From: an uncultured Bacteroidota bacterium
GTDB lineage: Bacteria > Bacteroidota > Bacteroidia > AKYH767-A > JABDAW01
NCBI GenBank assembly: GCA_903844645.1
Contig: CAIMUP010000119.1
Span: 1 to 38,056 of the forward strand
Length of the DNA stretch: 38,056 nt
Direction of reading: 5' to 3'
Both the position numbers and the translations under genes were made by a program. The first letter of the stretch is position 1. Each line of letters starts with the position of its first letter. The notes under the pieces were generated by a model. The model worked only from the letters and a program-made list of their open reading frames with translations, was not told the DNA's origin and ran no database searches. Positions 8,099 through 21,300 of this stretch are shown here, one piece after another.

Positions 8099-8261
8099 AG
8101 TTATCATTTCATAAGTATCATTATATCAATACATTATCCCATTTTTCCCTCGTCATCTAAAATAATGTTCATAACTTTATCCCTCCCGATGCCCTTTATT
8201 CCAAATTTTAATTCAATCTTTGCAGCCCCAAACAAAAACAGAATTAAAAAAAATAAAAATT

Positions 8262-9221
8262 ATGCCTCACATTTTAACACAAACCGAAAGCAACGAGGTT
8301 ACGAGAGACCACAAGCAAATGGATTTTTGCAATATCTCCACAAACGCGACCATTATTGATGGATACCCACCCTTCAAAAGGAATATGGCTGCCCTCTTGG
8401 TCGAGGTCAATTATATCGAAGGAAAAGAAGCCCAAAAAGATGTCAGCCATCACGGAACGACGGTAGGAAAAATGTCGTTGAAAGTAGGCTTCGCAGATTT
8501 TGAAATCCCTATCATGAACAAAGTCCGCGCCTTCTCCCTCGACCCGCTGAATAGAACGCCGGACGCCATGATCGCCATGACTCAACTGGAGGAAGATATG
8601 ACCATCCGCCACGACGAAATTATCTCGATGAAAGATGCCGATGTCATCGGATTTGCCGAAAAAATAAAAGAAAAAGTAACTCCCTTTTTACCGCAATTAT
8701 TTACCCAGGAATACGATGTCGTCGTCGCCAATTTAGATGCAGGAATTGCCAAAGCAACGCTCTTCAAAAATTCTATCGGAGCCGCCAGCACCATCGAAGC
8801 AGGAGCACATGTCGCAGGAGTAGATATTCATACCTCGTATGTCAGAATTATCGCCATCCAGAAGCTGATAAAACTGAATTTAAGCCACTGGGATATCCTC
8901 AATCCCGATTTCGTTCTCGGCATGAAATCATCCAGCGTGGTAGACCATCTCGGACATAGCAATACCGTATTAAAAGGAGTCGTAACAGGCGGTCCGGAAA
9001 ATACCCCCTTGGATAATGCCACCGTCCAAAACAAAAGAAATTTAAGATTCGCCGACATTAATATTTTAGCCCAATACGAACTCCGGAAGTTTCATGCCCA
9101 TTTAGATTTTTGGGAAATAAAATGCCCCGGATTCCAAACCAAATTAATAGCAATAAAAACCCAAGCCGGCAAAACAATGACCATGGATTTCCATCTCGAC
9201 CCCATCGTCCCCGCTCCTTAA
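8262..9221 (+). CDS. Hypothetical protein, 319 aa
   Basis: I do not recognise this protein. It begins MPHILTQTESNE, with no signal peptide or membrane helix, so it is probably cytoplasmic. The N-terminal third is beta-rich (MAALLVEVNYIEG, MSLKVGFADFEIPI). The middle is helical (about 120-185), including a repeated Ala/Gly pattern around NSIGAASTIEAGAHVAGVD. The C-terminal third looks like a beta-sandwich. The ATG at 8262 was chosen over an earlier in-frame start at 8220 because the weak -7 element overlaps that codon and the region between is A-rich leader. It stands alone between array A3 and a strong terminator. Phage- or secretion-related structural roles are possible but not supported by a motif. 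Confidence 0.85.
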   Translation: MPHILTQTESNEVTRDHKQMDFCNISTNATIIDGYPPFKRNMAALLVEVNYIEGKEAQKDVSHHGTTVGKMSLKVGFADFEIPIMNKVRAFSLDPLNRTPDAMIAMTQLEEDMTIRHDEIISMKDADVIGFAEKIKEKVTPFLPQLFTQEYDVVVANLDAGIAKATLFKNSIGAASTIEAGAHVAGVDIHTSYVRIIAIQKLIKLNLSHWDILNPDFVLGMKSSSVVDHLGHSNTVLKGVVTGGPENTPLDNATVQNKRNLRFADINILAQYELRKFHAHLDFWEIKCPGFQTKLIAIKTQAGKTMTMDFHLDPIVPAP

Positions 9222-9568: not shown

Positions 9569-12500
9569 ATGAAAAAAGTAAACAAAATTTTAATCCTGTG
9601 CCTCGCACTGTTCATCATGATGAACGCCCAGGCACAAACCGGACCTACGGGACCAACAGGAGGAACAGGCAAAGGGTACAATGCCAAGTCTGCCTCCAAT
9701 GTAGCAGTTGGAACAGGTTCAAAGACTTTTGTAACCACCGTCGTAACCTCTACCTACGCCTATTCAGTAGGCGAGAGAGTTCGAATCATTGACTCGGTAA
9801 GTACTCCGATTTACATGGAAGGTTCGATAACAACAGTTAATGGATCGTCTTACGTTGTCAATGTAGATGTAGCAGTCGGTTCAGGTTCTTTCACTACTTG
9901 GGTAATTCAAGTTGCAGGGAATGTCGGAACATCAGGTGCAACAGGTGCTACTGGTTCGGCAGGAGCTAATGGCGCAACAGGAGCAGCAGGTACTAATGGA
10001 ACAAATGGAGCAACAGGAGCTGCCGGAACAAACGGTTCTAATGGCGCAACAGGAGCTACCGGAGCGATTGGTAATGATGGACCAGCAGGTCCAACAGGAG
10101 CAGCAGGTACAAACGGAACAAACGGTTCTAATGGAGCAACAGGAGCTACCGGAGCAGCAGGTACTAATGGTACAAACGGAACAAATGGTTCTAACGGTGC
10201 AACAGGTGCTACCGGAGCAGCAGGAGCAACAGGAGCTACTGGCGCAGCAGGAACTAATGGTACAAACGGAACGAATGGTACTAATGGAGCAACAGGTGCT
10301 ACCGGTGTTGGCTTAACAGGTCCTACCGGAGCAACAGGTCCAAGTGGAGGTCCAGTAGGTCCTACCGGTGCAGCAGGAACGAATGGTACGAATGGAACAA
10401 ACGGTACGAATGGCGCAACAGGTGCTACCGGAGCAGCAGGAACTAATGGTACGAATGGAACAAACGGTACGAATGGCGCAACAGGTGCTACTGGTCCAGC
10501 AGGTACTAATGGAACCAATGGAGCAACTGGAGGAACTGGAAATACAGGTGCTGCAGGTGCTGCAGGGAAAGGATATAATGCTCAATCCGCAACTAGTACA
10601 TTAATGGGTACTGGTTCAAAAGTATTTACAACTGGTTCATTAACCAGTACCATGGCTTATACAACAGGGGTGCGAGTAAGAGTAATTAATACTATTACCC
10701 CTACAATTTACATGGAAGGTTCCATAACAAATGTTGCTACATCTTCATATACAGTTAATGTTGATTTGGTTGTAGGTTCAGGTACGTTTGCGTCATGGGC
10801 AATTAATGTTACAGGAAATATTGGAGCAACAGGAGCAACAGGAAGTGCTGGTGCAACTGGAGCCACAGGTGCAGGATCTAATGGAGCAACAGGCGCAACA
10901 GGTGCTGCCGGAACAAACGGTGCTAATGGAGCGACAGGCGCAACAGGTGCTGCCGGAACAAATGGTTCTAATGGAGCGACAGGTGCTACAGGAGCGAATG
11001 GAAATAACGGTTCTAATGGAGCAACAGGTGCTACGGGAGCAGCCGGAACAAATGGTTCTAATGGAGCAACTGGTGCTACCGGAGCAAATGGAAATAACGG
11101 TTCCAATGGAGCAACAGGCGCAACAGGTGCTGCCGGAACAAATGGTTCTAATGGAGCAACAGGCGCAACAGGTGCTGCCGGAACAAACGGTTCTAATGGA
11201 GCGACAGGTGCTACAGGTGCAGCCGGAACAAATGGTTCTAATGGAGCGACAGGTGCAACAGGAGCTGCCGGAACAAATGGTTCTAATGGAGCGACAGGTG
11301 CTACAGGAGCTGCTGGAACAAATGGTTCTAATGGAGCGACAGGTGCTACAGGAGCGAATGGAAATAACGGTTCTAATGGAGCAACAGGTGCTACGGGAGC
11401 AAATGGAAATAACGGTTCTAATGGAGCAACAGGTGCTACCGGAGCAAATGGAAATAACGGTTCTAATGGAGCGACAGGCGCAACAGGTGCTACCGGAGCG
11501 AATGGAAATAACGGTTCTAATGGAGCGACAGGTGCTACCGGGGCGAATGGAAATAACGGTTCTAATGGAGCAACCGGAGCAACCGGAATTGGTTTAACTG
11601 GTCCTACTGGTCCATCAGGAAATGATGGCTCTGCTGGACCTACTGGTTCTGCAGGTCCAACTGGTCCTACAGGAGCTACTGGTCCAAGTGGTGGTCCTAT
11701 TGGTCCTACTGGTCTTGGTTATGGTGGTAAATCTCATACAACAGTAACGATGATAGCTCCAGGTGTAAGGACATTCACTCTTTTAACCCCTTCTCAATAT
11801 GCTTATCAACCTGGAGTAAGAGTTAGGATTACTGATTCAGCTAATACAGCAATCTATATGGAAGGTATTGATTCTTCTTATAACTCTTCAACAGGAGTTT
11901 TAATTGTTAATGTAGATTTAAGAGTTGGGTCTGGTTCATACAATTCATGGTACATAAATGTTACTGGTAATATTGGTTCTGTAGGCGCAACAGGCGCAAC
12001 AGGAAGTGCTGGTGTTGCTGGACCTACTGGTGCTGCTGGTGTTGCTGGTCCCACTGGTGCAACAGGTGTTGGAGTAGCAGGTGCAACGGGTTCTACTGGT
12101 GCAACAGGTCCATCTGGAGGTCCTGTTGGTCCTACTGGTCCTGTCGGAACAAATGGTATTAATGGAACAAACGGAACAAACGGTGCGACAGGTCCTACTG
12201 GCGCAACAGGTGCTACCGGTCCATCAGGAGGTCCTGTTGGTCCTACGGGTGCTACGGGTGCTACAGGTCCATCAGGAGGTCCTGTTGGTCCTACTGGAGT
12301 TGCTGGTCCGACAGGCGCAACAGGCGCAACTGGTTTTACTGGTCCTGGATATAATTCTTCTTCAGTACAATCTTATACAATAGCTACAGGTAACCAAACA
12401 TTTGTTCTTACCAATGGTAATTATTTCTACAATGTTGGTACCAGAGTAAGAATTTTTAATTCTCTGACAAATTACATGGAAGGCGTAGTTGCGAATTTTT

Positions 12501-14473
12501 CAGGCAATTCTCTTAATGTAACTATCGATAGAATTGTTGGTTCAGGAACATTTAATAGTTGGAATGTTCACCTTACTGGTGATGTTGGTGGTGTTGGTCC
12601 TACTGGTCCTCAAGGTCCTACTGGTCCTACAGGTGTTCAAGGTCAACAAGGCTTTACTGGTGCTACTGGTGCTGCTGGTGCTAATGGAAATACTGGTCCG
12701 ATTGGTCCTACAGGTATTGATGGACTTACTGGTCCTACTGGTGCTACTGGAACTAATGGTTCAAACGGTGCGACAGGTGCGACAGGTGCTCAAGGTCCTA
12801 TCGGTCCTACTGGTGCTACTGGTGCTACCGGATCCTTTACTACTGGCTCTGCCTTCGGACAAACACTTTATTATAATGGAACAGTTTGGACTCCTACTAT
12901 CAATCTTTATAACAATGGAACCAATGTCGGAATTGGTGTTACCAATCCATTAGAGGCTCTTGATATTAACGGAGAGGCGAATCTAAGAATAGGAGGTTCA
13001 TACAGAATTAACGATAACCGAGTTCTTAGTATTAATGGTACTCAAGATCTTTTTGTCGGCACCTATCCTTCGGCATTGTACTCTGCTTCCAATAACACCC
13101 TCATGGGTTCAGGTAGCGGTGCAGGTTTGATTACTGGTGCTTTCAATACCTTTGCTGGTGATAATAGCGGTAATTTTTCTGTTGCCGATTCTGCTAATTC
13201 TTTCTTTGGAAGTTCTGCGGGAGCGATCAATAATGGCAGTAGTTATAATACTTTCATAGGTGCCAATTCCGGAAAAAATAATGTGACCGGTTCAAGAAAT
13301 ACGTTCCTTGGTGAGGAATCAGGATTAAAGAATGCTGCCCTAAGTAATTCTAATGTGTTTATTGGTTATAAAGCTGGTTTGGCTAATTTCAAACTTGCAT
13401 CTAACAATGTTTTTCTGGGAACTATGTCGGGCAGTAATAATTTCTCCGGAAATGGAAATACCTTCCTAGGCGACAGTGCCGGGTATAGAAATATTACCGG
13501 AAATAACAACATCGCAATTGGAAAAAATGCCACTATGGCTGATTCATTAATCAACGCTATTGCGCTTGGTGCAGGTTCATTTGTGAATCAATCGAACACC
13601 ATGTCTATCGGTGGTGATGGAACTACAATTCCTTATCATCATGTGGTGATTGGAAGACCTACCACTCCGTATCAATTAGAACTTACATTGGATGCTGCTG
13701 CCAAACCAGGTACTTCTACATGGATTATTACTTCTGATGCAAGATTGAAGAAAGATGTTACAGAATTCAAAGACGGATTGAATGTTATGGAAAAAATTAA
13801 TCCTGTTTGGTTCTCTTATAATGGAAAAGGAGGGATGCCTACCGGAGATCGTTATGTAGGAATTATTGCTCAAGAAATGCAAAAAATTGCTCCTTATATG
13901 ATAAGTTCTTATAAATATAAAGACCCTAAAACTGGTGTAGAATCTGATTATTTGAACTATAATGCCAACGCTTTATTCTACATTACGGTGAATTCTATTA
14001 AAGAGCAACAAAAACAAATTCAGGCTAAAGACGCTCAAATTGCAGACCTCGGAAATCAGGTTACTAACCTTCAATCCGAAGTGAATGCACTGAAATCGCA
14101 GAGCACACAGATTGATGCGATGAAGAATCGTTTGGATGCATTCGAGAAATCATTGTCGGAATGTTGTACCAATTTCCAAACAGGTACAGGTGCTAATACC
14201 GCCGCCCCTGCTACGCCTTTCTTAGAGCAAAATCAACCAAATCCATTCAATGAAAATACTACTATTCGCTATTATATCCCTACCAATGCGAAGGGTGCGA
14301 CGGTAACGATTCATTCATTAGATGGAAAGAAATTGAATACTTTCAAGATTGATCAAACGGGCTTTGGACAAATCATCATCTCTGGCGGAACACTCCCAAC
14401 CGGAACGTATTTGTATCAATTAACAATTGACAACAAGGTGATAGATTCTAAGCAAATGATGCTGATAAAATAA
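9569..14473 (+). CDS. Secreted collagen-like fibre protein with S74 chaperone domain and T9SS sorting domain
   Basis: This 1634-residue protein has a signal peptide (1-23, ending AQAQ). Long Gly-X-Y tracts rich in GATGATG and [10 protein letters not shown] are interrupted by four related beta-domains of about 85 residues (near 35-120, 334-418, 716-801, 925-1007), each with Y..G.RVRI and YMEG. A head region (about 1091-1330) has repeats such as NTFIGANSG and NTFLGDSAG, reminiscent of trimeric adhesins. A peptidase S74 intramolecular chaperone follows, with Ser1389 in SDARLKK, and then a coiled coil (about 1477-1530). The final 84 residues are a T9SS sorting domain ([14 protein letters not shown] through [15 protein letters not shown]). 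It is probably a trimeric cell-surface fibre. The substrate of adhesion is unknown. Confidence 0.95.
10900..11590 (+). repeat. Coding minisatellite in the collagen-like region
   Basis: Near-identical in-frame units of mainly 45 bp encode [15 protein letters not shown], interspersed with a second type encoding [15 protein letters not shown]. Neighbouring units match in long stretches and differ mostly at third codon positions (GGA/GGT, GCG/GCA/GCT). This suggests recent unit exchange under selection for the Gly-X-Y pattern, and length variation between strains is likely. Confidence 0.85.
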
Positions 14474-14944: not shown

Positions 14945-17900
14945 TTAGTTTTTCCTTTCTCCGACGAAAAACATTTCTATTTCGCCCTTGTGCTTCGCCT
15001 CAATTTTCCCTCGTGAGGCACATTCAAAATCGTTTTTCACCAGTTCATAGGTCGAACCGGAGATATTTATCTGTCCCACCTCGGCATTGGATTCCATTCT
15101 GGCAGCAGTATTTACAGTATCTCCCCAAATATCAAAAGCAAACTTCTTGGTGCCGACCACTCCTGCCACTACCGGTCCGGAATTAATGCCGATACGTATC
15201 TCGAAATAATGTTCATTCCGAGCCTCGGCTTCGGCTTTGTGGAGGTTCATATAATCCTGAATTTCGAGAGCGGCATTAATCATGTCCTTGGCATGAGATT
15301 GGGTAACGATAGGCAGCCCGCTAACGCACATGTAAGCATCGCCAATCGTCTTTATCTTTTCGATGCCATGCTTCTCTAATATCCTGTCGAACTCGCCAAA
15401 GAACTGGTCAATTTTTGACACCAATGTTTCAGGATCTAACCGCTCGGATATTTGGGTGAAGCCTTTAAAATCGGTGAACATGACGGAGACATTTTCGTAT
15501 TTCTTAGGGGTGGATCTACCATCTCTTTTTAACTCCTCGGCAATCTCGAAAGGGAGAATATTAAGGAGCAATAAGTCGGATTTATTCTTTTCTATTTCTA
15601 ATAATTCCTTCTGCTTTTCAATCTCCATAGTCCGCTCGGCAACCTTATTTTCGAGATTAGCATAAAGCAACGCGTTGTTAATAGAAATCGCCATCTGCCC
15701 TGAGAGCAAGTTCAATACCTCCAATCGCGAAGGGGTAAACACATCCGAAGCAAGGTTGTTTTCAAGATAAATAATCGCAATCACTTTTCCCTGCATCAGG
15801 ATAGGCATGCAGAGGATAGACTTGGGTTTGTTTTCCTGAATGTAAGCGTCCTTGGCGAACCGTTGATCCACCGAAGGATTATTCAAGATTAAATTTTCTT
15901 TGGTATGATACACCAATTGTACCACTGTATGCGGTATGCCCACAACATTTTCCAACAGATTATTCTGGAACTTAAACTGCGAACCGTCATCCATTTTGTT
16001 CACCGCCTCCACGAATAATTTTTCATCACGAACCATGACAATATATCCATTCTGTGCACCCGCATTTTCAATCACTATCTTCAACAATTTATCCAGCAAT
16101 CTTTCGAACACCACCTCCCCTGAAATGCTGGTAGAGGCTTTAAAAATGCTTTGCAAATCTATCATGGAAGAAGTTGTCGAACTGACCATTCCCATGGAAC
16201 TTGTCCTGCGCATAGCCTTATCGTGGCTTTCCCACAGTTGCGCCAATTGAGGGTAGTTCGCCTCCAATTGTTTCACCTTCGCGATAGCACCCCACTGACC
16301 ATAATCCATCCACGCATCACGAATCAATAAGTTGGCAATATCATTGAAGCCTTTGTTGAAATAAAACTCTGCACAACGCTCAAAGATGATAGCCGAAACA
16401 TGTGGTAAATTAGAACTCCGCCCTTCATTAATAGTTTCACCATACAGTTCGGCAGCACGCGCATATTTCTTTTTATACAACGCCAATTCCGATTCTATTA
16501 AAAGATATTTTGCTTTGAAATTTCCGGGAGCACTCTTCGCCCACAAGTTCATCATCTTTTGATTTTCTAACAACTTTGTAAGTAATTCCTTTTCTGCTTC
16601 AGGCTTATGATTTTTTTTCTTATTCAAAAGGGCAATGATGCTTAATGAATGATAGAAGTTATGCTCTCCAAACTCCGGTAAACCAATAACAGATGGCATC
16701 AAAGGTACCGCCTTCTCGGCAGACTCATAAGCCTTTTCATAGTCATTGAAGTAATAATAAATCGCTGAATCGAAGATGTAATAAGTAGCCAGAGTAAGTT
16801 GAACACCGATGGCTGCAAAATCTATCAGGAACTTGAAATGAACATCAGGGTCTGAGAATTCGCCATATACATCTTCTTCATATTTCTTACCTGTAAGGGC
16901 AACCGCCATCCGAGTAATAGAAAGCAATTGATGTAGTGAAACTGGGGATTGAATTTGTCTTGCAAAGTGGACATACCCTTTCGCTTTATTGTATGCAGAT
17001 TCTAAATTTTCGCCACCAAAAATTTGGCTTCTGTTGATGAAAGTTACAGCATAACCTGCATAAATCAAATCGTTAGATTCAACACCCACATCATGAGCTA
17101 TACGGAGACCCGGTAATGCTTTGAAATAATTATCCTTCCAATGTGAAACACAACCTTCAGCAATAACCAATACTTTTGAGCGAAGGGTTTTATCATCAAA
17201 CTTCTCATTAATCTTAATCCCTAAACGAGAATATTCATAACCATTCTTAAAGTCTTTCAACTGTGCAGATAAAACATATCCATAGAAAGCAAATGCCACA
17301 GCTGATTCAATTGAATTACCATTCCTCACAGAAAGATTCACCATCCTTAAAATAAAAAATACAAGCAAGTTTTGCTTTTGTAAAAGATAACACGGACCCC
17401 AAAGATTCATCAAAATCTTCATGGTAAGCATAAGCTCTGGCGACTTCATGTTTTTATTCTTTAATAAGCTACCTATAGATTTACCTTTCAGCAACGTAGT
17501 AACCTCACCCAGCTCTCCATAAACTTGTTCAGGGGTAGTATCAATAGGTAAATCCAAACCAAGCAATGCCAAGCCTTCCTTAGCCGAATCAATTGCTAAC
17601 TGATGACGTTGGGTGTTCTCATACAACTGCATTTTACGGGCATAAACTTCTGCTTTCTTCAAGTTAGTATCCGCATTTTCTAATGCAATGTCAAACATCT
17701 TTTCCGACTCTTCGTAATTACCACAAAGGTACTCACATTCAGAACGGGCGATAAGGAAATCTTTATAAAGATCAGATGATTTATCATGTTCCAATAAATC
17801 CATTCCGGATTGATAACAATTGAGAGCTGCTTGATAGGCATTAGAGTTTTTCGCCTTCTCCGCAGCTCTGAAATTAAGCTTCGCTATTTTCTCTTGTTCC

Positions 17901-20140
17901 TTTTTATCTGTAATCAATTCATTAGAAAAATTCAGATGACCGAGAATGTCAAAAATATTGTCATTGATTTCAGATTCGGAAAGTTTGTTAAGCAGCAATC
18001 TCCCTATTCTTAAATGGACTTTCTTCCGGTCTGTTTCTGGAATCAGGGAATAGGCTGCTTGCTGAATCCTGTCATGATGAAAATTAAAGTAGGTAAATTC
18101 TTTGGTGATTTCTTTCATACCTATTTCTTCCCACAACTCATCTTTATAATGTTTAGACCACTTGCCTCGAGGATTAATGAAGCCTTCCTGCACGGTTTCC
18201 CATAGAATATTTGCGGCTTCGCTTTCCGATTTCTCTGCAATGATAGACAATGTTCCTATGTCAAAACTATTCCCGATAGAAGAAGCATGCTTTAAAATAT
18301 TCTGTGCTGGCTTCGATAGTTGTTGGATTTTATTCACCACCAAATCTACCACATTATCCGTAACATTCATCTTCCCGATACCATCGGCATTCCATTTCCA
18401 AGAGAGAGAAAGTAGGTCAAAATAGATTAATTTATGCTGGGCTAATGTCTGGACAAATTGTTTGATGAAAAAAGGATTACCATGAGTTTTATTCATGACC
18501 AAGTCGGTCAGCTCTTTAGTATTAGTGGCATTCTGACGTAAGGAATCTGCGATAAACTGATTCACTTGTTCACTGTCTAATTCTTTCAGGGTAATGGTAT
18601 TTACTTTATTCGGGGCTTCTTTAGCTAACCGTTCCAATTCCATCATTAAAGGATGTGAAGGACTTACTTCATTGTCGCGGTATGCACCGAGTACAAGAAC
18701 ATTGTTGATGGATGCATCGGTGAGCAACGTATGTATCAATTCAAATGAACCGGAATCTGCCCATTGCAAATCGTCCACGAAGATAACTAATGGGTGTTCC
18801 TTCGTCGCCAATATCCTTAGCAGCTTTTGAAAGAGATTAAAGAACCGGATTTTCGTTTCGCTCAACCCCAACTTCAATACCTGTGGTTGTTTCCCTATCA
18901 GCAATTCCAATTCTGGAATAATATCAATTAACACTTGTCCATTGCCTTCGAGGGCTTCCAGAATATCTTGTTGCCATTGTCCTATGTTCTCCTGATTTTC
19001 GGTTAATAACAACCTTACTAATGACCCAAATGCCTGGCTGAATGCACTGTATGGAACATCTCTATTATATTGGTCGAATTTGCCAGAGGTAAAGTACCCA
19101 TCTTGCTTGGCGATGGGCTTATGGATTTCATTGATCAGTCTGGTTTTGCCAATGCCGGAATACCCCGCTACCAGCACCATCTCGACACCACTATCTTTGA
19201 TTCTGTCGAACGAAGAAATCAGGTTCACGATCTCGTCGCCACGACCATAAAGCTTCTCGGAGATAGATAAAACTGGCGAATGATCTCTACTACTTATCTT
19301 CACGATGCCTATCTTGCCGGTCGTGTTCCATTGCAGCAGGCATTCCTCCAAATCGGCTTTGATTCCTTCCGCGCTTTGATACCTGTCCTCGGCATTTTTT
19401 GCCATTAACTTCATCACAATATCCGAAATGGCTTTTGGAATAAGGGGATTCAAAACATCAGGGGCGATGGGGGCTTTCGCGATGTGGGCATGTACCAATT
19501 CCATCAGATCGTCATAAACAAAAGGCAGTTTGCCCGTCAGCATTTGATAGAAGGTAACGCCCAAAGAATAGAAATCGGTACGATAATCTATGCTCCGATT
19601 CATCCTCCCTGTTTGTTCGGGAGAGATATGCGCCAAGGACCCGCGGATAGCTTCTGAATGGCTCAATTCGGACAGTTCTTTGGCGAGCGTGGTAGAGATT
19701 TCGAAGTTGCAAATCTTCAATTTCATGCTCTCCGAACCCATCAGGATATTAAAAGGATTAAAATTTTTATGAATGATTTTCTTTTCATGAATTGCTGACA
19801 GGATGGTCGCCATCCGGATTCCTAAATCCAGAAAAGAGGGTATCGAAACAGGCTTTTCTTCGATATGTTTGATCAAGGGGATACCATTAAAATACTCTTT
19901 CACGACCGCGAAGCCGCCTTGATATTTCACCATGTCATAACTTTCCAAGACGCCGTACATGTGGTTCGAGTTGGTGATTTCATAATCATTCTTGAGGCTC
20001 ACCAAATCATCCAAAGTGGGGAAATCGGCATCCGGAATCTGAATTAAAAACTTCTTATCCGTGCCTTCTTTCAGTGCCTCGAAATACATGGTATTGGAGG
20101 ATTGGAATTGCGACTTGAGTATCTGGTAGCCTTTGATCAT
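14945..20140 (-). CDS. Multidomain class III adenylate cyclase with degenerate kinase and AAA ATPase domains
   Basis: Domains of this 1731-residue protein are as follows. 1-270: a Ser/Thr kinase fold with ISPEQTGRMNR and DFYSLGVTFYQMLTGKLPF, but with Gln34 for the ATP-binding Lys, Asn126 for the catalytic Asp (HKNFNP) and Asn145 for the DFG Asp (CNFE). 295-600: an AAA/STAND-type ATPase with Walker A GYSGIGKT (326-333) and Walker B FVDDLQWAD (454-462). About 750-1290: helical, TPR-like. About 1330-1488: GAF. 1490-1525: coiled coil. 1540-1725: a cyclase with metal ligands Asp1557 and Asp1601, adenine-selecting Lys1597 and Asp1670, and Asn1677/Arg1681. The cyclase site is complete and ATP-specific, so the product should be cAMP. 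It is cytoplasmic and has its own promoter. Confidence 0.95.
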   Translation of the reverse strand: MIKGYQILKSQFQSSNTMYFEALKEGTDKKFLIQIPDADFPTLDDLVSLKNDYEITNSNHMYGVLESYDMVKYQGGFAVVKEYFNGIPLIKHIEEKPVSIPSFLDLGIRMATILSAIHEKKIIHKNFNPFNILMGSESMKLKICNFEISTTLAKELSELSHSEAIRGSLAHISPEQTGRMNRSIDYRTDFYSLGVTFYQMLTGKLPFVYDDLMELVHAHIAKAPIAPDVLNPLIPKAISDIVMKLMAKNAEDRYQSAEGIKADLEECLLQWNTTGKIGIVKISSRDHSPVLSISEKLYGRGDEIVNLISSFDRIKDSGVEMVLVAGYSGIGKTRLINEIHKPIAKQDGYFTSGKFDQYNRDVPYSAFSQAFGSLVRLLLTENQENIGQWQQDILEALEGNGQVLIDIIPELELLIGKQPQVLKLGLSETKIRFFNLFQKLLRILATKEHPLVIFVDDLQWADSGSFELIHTLLTDASINNVLVLGAYRDNEVSPSHPLMMELERLAKEAPNKVNTITLKELDSEQVNQFIADSLRQNATNTKELTDLVMNKTHGNPFFIKQFVQTLAQHKLIYFDLLSLSWKWNADGIGKMNVTDNVVDLVVNKIQQLSKPAQNILKHASSIGNSFDIGTLSIIAEKSESEAANILWETVQEGFINPRGKWSKHYKDELWEEIGMKEITKEFTYFNFHHDRIQQAAYSLIPETDRKKVHLRIGRLLLNKLSESEINDNIFDILGHLNFSNELITDKKEQEKIAKLNFRAAEKAKNSNAYQAALNCYQSGMDLLEHDKSSDLYKDFLIARSECEYLCGNYEESEKMFDIALENADTNLKKAEVYARKMQLYENTQRHQLAIDSAKEGLALLGLDLPIDTTPEQVYGELGEVTTLLKGKSIGSLLKNKNMKSPELMLTMKILMNLWGPCYLLQKQNLLVFFILRMVNLSVRNGNSIESAVAFAFYGYVLSAQLKDFKNGYEYSRLGIKINEKFDDKTLRSKVLVIAEGCVSHWKDNYFKALPGLRIAHDVGVESNDLIYAGYAVTFINRSQIFGGENLESAYNKAKGYVHFARQIQSPVSLHQLLSITRMAVALTGKKYEEDVYGEFSDPDVHFKFLIDFAAIGVQLTLATYYIFDSAIYYYFNDYEKAYESAEKAVPLMPSVIGLPEFGEHNFYHSLSIIALLNKKKNHKPEAEKELLTKLLENQKMMNLWAKSAPGNFKAKYLLIESELALYKKKYARAAELYGETINEGRSSNLPHVSAIIFERCAEFYFNKGFNDIANLLIRDAWMDYGQWGAIAKVKQLEANYPQLAQLWESHDKAMRRTSSMGMVSSTTSSMIDLQSIFKASTSISGEVVFERLLDKLLKIVIENAGAQNGYIVMVRDEKLFVEAVNKMDDGSQFKFQNNLLENVVGIPHTVVQLVYHTKENLILNNPSVDQRFAKDAYIQENKPKSILCMPILMQGKVIAIIYLENNLASDVFTPSRLEVLNLLSGQMAISINNALLYANLENKVAERTMEIEKQKELLEIEKNKSDLLLLNILPFEIAEELKRDGRSTPKKYENVSVMFTDFKGFTQISERLDPETLVSKIDQFFGEFDRILEKHGIEKIKTIGDAYMCVSGLPIVTQSHAKDMINAALEIQDYMNLHKAEAEARNEHYFEIRIGINSGPVVAGVVGTKKFAFDIWGDTVNTAARMESNAEVGQINISGSTYELVKNDFECASRGKIEAKHKGEIEMFFVGERKN

Positions 20141-20242: not shown

Positions 20243-20271
20243 AAAAAGCGGCACTTTTTGTACCGCTTTTT
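20243..20271 (-). terminator. Terminator of the interrupted gene at 20287
   Basis: AAAAAGCGG and CCGCTTTTT form a 9-bp stem around an 11-nt loop, with T-runs on both strands. Reading on the minus strand, it follows the stop at 20287 by 15 nt and insulates the cyclase promoter. Confidence 0.85.
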
Positions 20272-20286
20272 GTGAAACTGTGAGGA

Positions 20287-21210
20287 TTAAATCAATCGCT
20301 TTCCTTTTTGTGATTTGCTGTGCAATTCATACTTGGTTATTCCTGTTGGGAAAAGGCTTTGAACTATAATTTCGGGTCCAAAGAAGTTCAAATATTCTTC
20401 ACCGGGAGTGAGAGTAACCCATTCGGTAACATCAGTAATTTTCTTGCCTCCTCCTATTCTTATATTTCCTAACGTGGAAGTATTTATTATTGCGCTGTTT
20501 TTTATTACCTTTGTCCATCCGAAGGTTGCTAAGGAGGGTAATACGCCAAATTTCCGGGTGTAATGAATACCTGTTTTATAAACTTCGATTGTGGTGAACC
20601 AACCGTTATAAAAATTATTATTTGAGATGAGGTTTATCATCAATTTACTGATGTCAACGATAACACTTGTTAAATTTTTGATATTGCCAGGCATGGTTTG
20701 GGTGGCGGCTTTTCTTTGTGCTATGGCAGCTTTTGGGTCGGCTTTGATGGGGTTAAATCCTAAAACATTTGTAGAAACTAAAGTGATGTCGGCAGCTACC
20801 AATCATGATGTGGCGAGGGCTGTAGGAATGGGACTTGGAATATTGGTAACAATGGATGAACAAAAATTTATTAAGTCATCTGGGGTCATGGCACTTAACT
20901 GGGATGGGGTTCGGAATATTAACGCTTTTAATGCTATATGCGTTTTTGCATAAACAGACCCATCAAATTTATTGATGACTACCAGCGCAGATAATTCCAA
21001 ATCTTCTCTTTTAACTTCTTTGTTTGTTGTTCTGCCTTTGTTGTTTTGGTTTTGAATGGTGGCATTGGAATTAATGGTAATAATTTTCGCATCGCCTTGG
21101 GTTTTATATGTCCCTATATCGGCGATTGAAGCCCATATTAGAGGGTTATCCGCGAGGTATTTCATTGCTAATTCTCCGGCTGTCAGTTTATCTTTTTGAA
21201 TCTTTGTCAT
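20287..21210 (-). pseudogene. Hypothetical gene interrupted by one in-frame TGA
   Basis: Two ORFs, 135 residues (20803-21210) and 171 residues (20287-20802), are contiguous in the same frame, separated only by TGA at 20803-20805. Together they make one 307-codon frame: MTKIQKDKL..TALATS, stop, LVAADITLV..KGKRLI. The helical pattern runs on across the stop. The upstream promoter is a perfect consensus and a good terminator follows, so the gene was functional or still is. It may be a recent nonsense mutation, a sequencing error, or a read-through or restart at the TTG right after the stop. TGA is a normal stop elsewhere here, so code reassignment is excluded. I do not recognise the protein; it has no signal peptide. 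Confidence 0.75.
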
Positions 21211-21268: not shown

Positions 21269-21300
21269 CAAAATTAGGGATTAAATATTTACTGACCAAA
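21269..21300 (-). promoter_or_regulatory. Consensus promoter of the interrupted gene
   Basis: On the minus strand TTTG (21297-21300), 20 bp, then TAATTTTG (21269-21276) is a perfect match to the Bacteroidota consensus. The leader would be about 50 nt. Confidence 0.75.

Follow-up and report, generated by a model that had tools for sequence, protein, structure and literature searches.

The window (the whole stretch of DNA that was analysed, 38,056 nucleotides) carries on its minus strand a reading frame that is interrupted by one in-frame TGA and that, by comparison with relatives, is a single gene. The frame lies between a match to a Bacteroidetes-type promoter and a terminator-like hairpin, and its features are as follows.

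20287..21210, minus strand: one gene, belonging to a paralogue family with a helical domain, with one internal TGA (307 codons including the TGA, plus TAA)
20806..21210, minus strand: segment ahead of the TGA, 135 codons counted from the ATG, matching family profile positions 1-129
20803..20805, minus strand: in-frame TGA, codon 136; its alignment column has Gly in the 13 top-scoring relatives and in 16 of 38 across the wider family
20290..20802, minus strand: segment following the TGA, 171 codons, open straight from the stop; the initial 88 residues of this segment align with positions 137-225 of the family profile
20287..20289, minus strand: normal terminal stop TAA, codon 308, by frame read-out
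21269..21300, minus strand: match to the Bacteroidetes-type promoter TTTG-N20-TAATTTTG, approximately 60 bases before the ATG, by motif match
about 20244..20271, minus strand: terminator-like hairpin with a U-rich 3' side (fold -16.4 kcal/mol, z -4.52)

The frame starts with the ATG at 21210, and the TGA is its sole internal in-frame stop. There are no indels, and the codon directly 3' of the TGA is a TTG. An earlier note on this DNA had described two parts in one frame, with no indel, no second lesion and a TTG right after the stop, and the sequence bears out each of these points. The neighbouring two frames of the minus strand are closed between 21210 and 20287, with 34 and 18 stops. Both parts have a normal coding score (0.085 and 0.092, compared with a gene mean of 0.100). 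In 398 kb of the source genome, 73 pairs of long same-frame segments (at least 100 codons each) are split by a stop. Frame openness alone is therefore weak proof of an interrupted gene, and it is the relatives that carry the case.

The sequence TTTG-N20-TAATTTTG is what we take to be the Bacteroidetes promoter consensus. The earlier note called this promoter perfect. Its location before the ATG agrees with that description, but its rarity does not: the pattern TTTG-N18..22-TAnnTTTG is present three times in the window, compared with 1.35 expected, and up to four times in 40 first-order simulations. The motif is thus not rare in the window, and only its position speaks for a promoter role. The terminator, which had been described as retained, fares better. 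None of 200 shuffles folds as well as the hairpin at 20244-20271, though the hairpin is not among the entries of a generic terminator scan of the window.

A close orthologue of the gene was not found, and a single-sequence search of two same-genus genomes gave none. Single-sequence searches produced matches in six of 61 genomes, the own genome counted, and the listed matches are 20-29% identical. For the read-through protein, no confirmed match to close or named relatives was obtained in genome_contigs, viral_contigs, plasmids or phages. Viral_contigs was also searched with alignment A3, again with no confirmed match, and a profile search of genome_contigs with the same alignment gave four loci, all from one MAG. 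Profile A1 finds the family in every one of the 42 genomes that represent the order, and many of the matches listed reach the C-terminal domain only. Counted from the matches listed, helical-domain members number at least eight in the source genome and at least 12, six and five in three family relatives.

These members form a large, fast-evolving and very divergent paralogue family with many copies per genome, of which the window gene is a lineage-specific member. They (G000-G003, L052-L080) are mostly 300-400 residues long; the N-terminal helical domain takes up ~215 residues, and the C-terminal part varies. In none of the eight proteins scanned is the helical domain covered by a Pfam match. 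Among seven relatives scanned, CarboxypepD_reg (PF13620) follows the helical domain above the cut-off in two, L080 (G003 C401) and L003 (G044 C27), and is below the cut-off in four others. Some relatives thus resemble the CarboxypepD_reg proteins of Bacteroidetes in carrying this domain C-terminally, whereas Pfam gives no match anywhere in the window gene. In a sequence search of solved structures at E <= 0.001, only the CarboxypepD_reg-like C-terminal part of the family was matched.

A profile made from 38 relatives, with the window gene left out, matches the N part at positions 1-129 (E 4.9e-20) and the C part at positions 137-225 (E 2.6e-9), compared with E 0.02 for the best of 1000 shuffles. 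A 13-relative profile matches the N part at 1-123 (E 2.2e-13) and the C part at 137-224 (E 5.2e-6), with the best shuffle at 0.17; both profiles carry a mild circularity, in that their relatives came from searches using the window gene or a profile containing it. Since the two parts fall on neighbouring stretches of a family profile made without the window gene, 20287-21210 is, judged by homology, one gene and not two.

The earlier note had proposed comparing the interrupted codon in relatives, and this comparison gives a sense codon, often Gly. The column of the TGA is Gly in seven of seven sequences in the first alignment and in all 13 best-scoring relatives, where it is one of only four invariant columns. 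The two relatives ranked just after these 13 have Asp, and the wider set of 38 has Gly in 16, Asn in seven, Asp in five and other residues in 10. A turn may lie at this position. An internal stop is present in none of 39 relatives, all distant paralogues, that were drawn from the single-sequence search and from the matches listed for profile A1; a stop shared by close strains alone would escape this comparison. Stops within the matched stretch are found at the C-terminal end only.

A structure model built from six sequences has a mean pLDDT of 62, with values of mostly 70-89 in the helical part and below 50 for residues 209-307. A Foldseek search of the model against the PDB gave no match at E <= 0.001. 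In this low-depth model, the TGA position is in a loop between helices 130-133 and 139-151 and is followed by long helices at 159-192 and 198-209. The same model bears on the idea that one transcript yields two proteins, with ribosomes stopping at the TGA and re-initiating at the TTG to give two subunits of a once-fused protein. The TTG adjoins the TGA, and the in-frame ATGs after the stop are only at codons 173 and 191, as such a scheme would have it. However, the cut divides the helical domain, a domain that is unbroken in 38 aligned relatives, and the modelled loop leaves the long helices on the far side of it. The 20 bases upstream of the TTG are C-rich and contain five A and eight purines, compared with 14 A and 15 purines upstream of the ATG; over 211 genes, the means are 8.5 and 10.7. 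This comparison is weak, as 17.5% of the 211 genes (taken from the first ATG) have as few A. An ATG does overlap the TGA (as ATGA), but it is out of frame with the gene. Two proteins from this transcript are very improbable.

TGA acts as an ordinary stop in the source genome. In 956 kb, 502 non-overlapping frames have 200 codons or more, and 59 of these end in TGA; the calling of the frames presumes TGA to be a stop. The median distance to the next in-frame stop is eight codons after TGA (5% beyond 60), compared with 17 after TAA and 16 after TAG. This short distance indicates that TGA-ended frames are not, as a class, cut-off longer genes. RF2 is found above the score cut-off in an open frame, with the GGQ and SPF motifs that we take to be those of RF2. 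SelA was not found in the source genome by a search that found it in two of 14 control genomes. Eight matches to the tRNA-Sec model are all below the cut-off, and the best of them is a tRNA-Ser. The RNA around the TGA folds like its shuffles (z 0.58, 0.81 and -0.60). Of the three marks of a selenoprotein gene that were sought (SelA, tRNA-Sec and a stem-loop after the UGA), none was found. Among 36 tRNA places, listed from 150 of 202 first-look candidates scored and then read with ARAGORN, none has a UCA anticodon. Reassignment of UGA to Gly or Trp would go with such a tRNA, loss of RF2 and no use of UGA as a stop; the genome instead has RF2 and TGA stops, and the 36 listed tRNAs do not include one with UCA.

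UGA is reported to be recoded as Gly in Gracilibacteria and Absconditabacteria (PMC8629427). The window gene is similar in that its UGA is at a column that is often Gly in relatives, and the source genome differs from the system described there in its RF2, its ordinary TGA stops and the lack of a UCA-anticodon tRNA among those found. A four-pair anticodon stem of tRNA-Trp and the changes A9C and G24A have been linked to UGA read-through (PMC13092985). In the tRNA-Trp of the source genome, a five-pair anticodon stem with a G-U top pair is possible by hand reading, and A9 and G24 are present; the minimum-energy fold does not show the cloverleaf.

Taken as a proposal, programmed or tolerated read-through would mean that the TGA holds expression down and still allows some full-length protein to form. 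The intact frame, the promoter match, the terminator and the coding character on both sides would all fit, as would the purifying selection reported for many bacterial in-frame stops (PMC7918605). Against it stand the relatives, with a stop in none of the 39 distant paralogues, the failure to find SelA, a true tRNA-Sec or a UCA anticodon, the tRNA-Trp stem that can form five pairs, the unremarkable RNA at the TGA and the ordinary use of TGA as a stop. Read-through is very unlikely here.

Other genes of the assembly are interrupted in a similar way. At least four such genes, one of them less certain, are present in about 0.96 Mb including the window gene, and this count is a lower bound that is not systematic. 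The first scan for split genes covered 398 kb, required the first ATG to be at least 25 codons after the stop and gave 21 places including the window gene. Besides the window gene, two were judged to be split, and the remainder were by eye real downstream genes or noise. A stricter scan of 956 kb gave six places; a CheB case was among them, but neither the window gene nor the two cases of the first scan were.

One of these genes, at L138:10261-11346 on the plus strand (G000:C73), has a signal-like start and one in-frame TGA at 10723 and probably encodes a secreted protein. An open same-genus relative covers both of its parts, with 55% and 46% identity. The CheB case, at L155:4635-8492 on the minus strand (G000:C2), is a CheB-CheR-PAS-HisKA protein with a TAA within CheB; positions 1-81 of the CheB profile match before the stop and 94-173 after it. 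An SprB-repeat protein at L136:13572-15269 on the minus strand (G000:C51) is seemingly split by a TAA at 14088, and its downstream SprB match is below the cut-off.

The TGA of the L138 gene, as a second such interruption in the genome, counts in favour of read-through, and the two TAA interruptions count against it. A variant with partial read-through of UGA in this lineage, by which a few genes, the window gene and the G000:C73 gene, would keep it as an expression dimmer without dedicated machinery, is slightly more doubtful still. With two TGA and two TAA, the mixture is better explained by random nonsense changes or consensus errors than by a mechanism specific to UGA, though four cases are too few for a test.

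The same interruptions bear on a sequencing or assembly error, in which case the real genome would have a sense codon at 20803-20805. Several isolated nonsense interruptions in otherwise intact frames in one sample would fit such an error, as would the fragmentation of the assembly into 143 contigs. The coverage of 2.5-3.1 of a related MAG points the same way, though this figure does not belong to the source genome. Stops can be made by 126 of 2754 point changes, a target of 4.6%, and if all four interruptions were errors, this would imply about one substitution error per 11 kb. On the other side are a completeness of 98.68% and a contamination of 0.14%, neither of which measures base errors, and the report that nonsense interruptions are common in complete bacterial genomes too (PMC7918605). 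An error is the less probable explanation, though it keeps an appreciable share of the probability, and a real mutation is favoured over it.

The likely explanation is that an ordinary nonsense change has interrupted one copy within a redundant and fast-evolving family of paralogues, with a recent loss of function. Relatives are open across the stop, and both sides are homologous to one continuous protein, as is expected of a nonsense-interrupted gene. One nonsense substitution at an often-Gly position would have generated the in-frame TGA, and ribosomes would terminate there by means of RF2. The resulting 135-residue product would end before the last long helices, would have none of the C-terminal part and would probably be non-functional. 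The promoter, terminator and remaining frame would still be intact after too little time, or under selection too weak, for more lesions to appear. Loss of one copy would be tolerated through family redundancy, and easily so because the source genome has at least eight members. The analysis demonstrates a single gene with one stop, open relatives, ordinary use of TGA as a stop and no recoding parts found; we infer the substitution itself, the loss of function, the tolerance by redundancy and the recent age. Against this explanation, both parts retain a normal coding score, with no close orthologue found to gauge age or relaxed selection; many bacterial genes with in-frame stops are reported to be under purifying selection (PMC7918605); and a consensus error would give an identical sequence picture.

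The earlier note had named a very recent nonsense mutation as one option. The lack of a second lesion agrees with this, but the bound is loose, as zero further lesions allow a neutral divergence of up to about 1.3-7% for an indel rate of 0.2 to 0 per substitution. Of the options the note had raised, a recent nonsense mutation and an assembly error both fit the data and are not separable from the sequence alone. Read-through and re-initiation gain no positive support, because no relative scanned (all distant) has the stop, no recoding machinery or unusual structure was found, and the TTG context is mediocre.

According to Belinky et al. (2021, PMC7918605), in-frame stops are widespread in bacterial genes, and most of them do not persist for long. 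The window gene resembles the single-nonsense pseudogenes and stop polymorphisms described there in its one stop, its otherwise intact frame, its open relatives and its expected short life. It differs in that no orthologue shares the stop and no dN/dS is possible. Many genes with in-frame stops have a dN/dS below 1 and are argued in that work not to be pseudogenes and possibly to be read through; as presented, this argument favours read-through in general and not for the window gene.

By itself, the interruption means little: a large, fast-evolving Bacteroidetes paralogue family is apparently losing one copy by point mutation. It is also a warning that, where a metagenome assembly shows a lone in-frame TGA, this has to be weighed against how often similar interruptions occur across that assembly.

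The upstream neighbour of the gene (LytTR match below the cut-off) has no match in three other family genomes, and only the cyclase part of the long kinase-cyclase neighbour matches in other family genomes, among the matches listed; there is therefore no orthologous site for comparison. The window encodes at 14945-20140, on the minus strand, a protein of 1731 residues whose domains are kinase, AAA, GAF and guanylate/adenylate cyclase. On the plus strand, the protein encoded at 9569-14473 has 1634 residues, which include six stretches of collagen repeats and an S74 chaperone domain. The helical-domain paralogue family has another member in the window, at 8220-9221 on the plus strand, opposite to that of the interrupted gene, and this second member has no internal stop.
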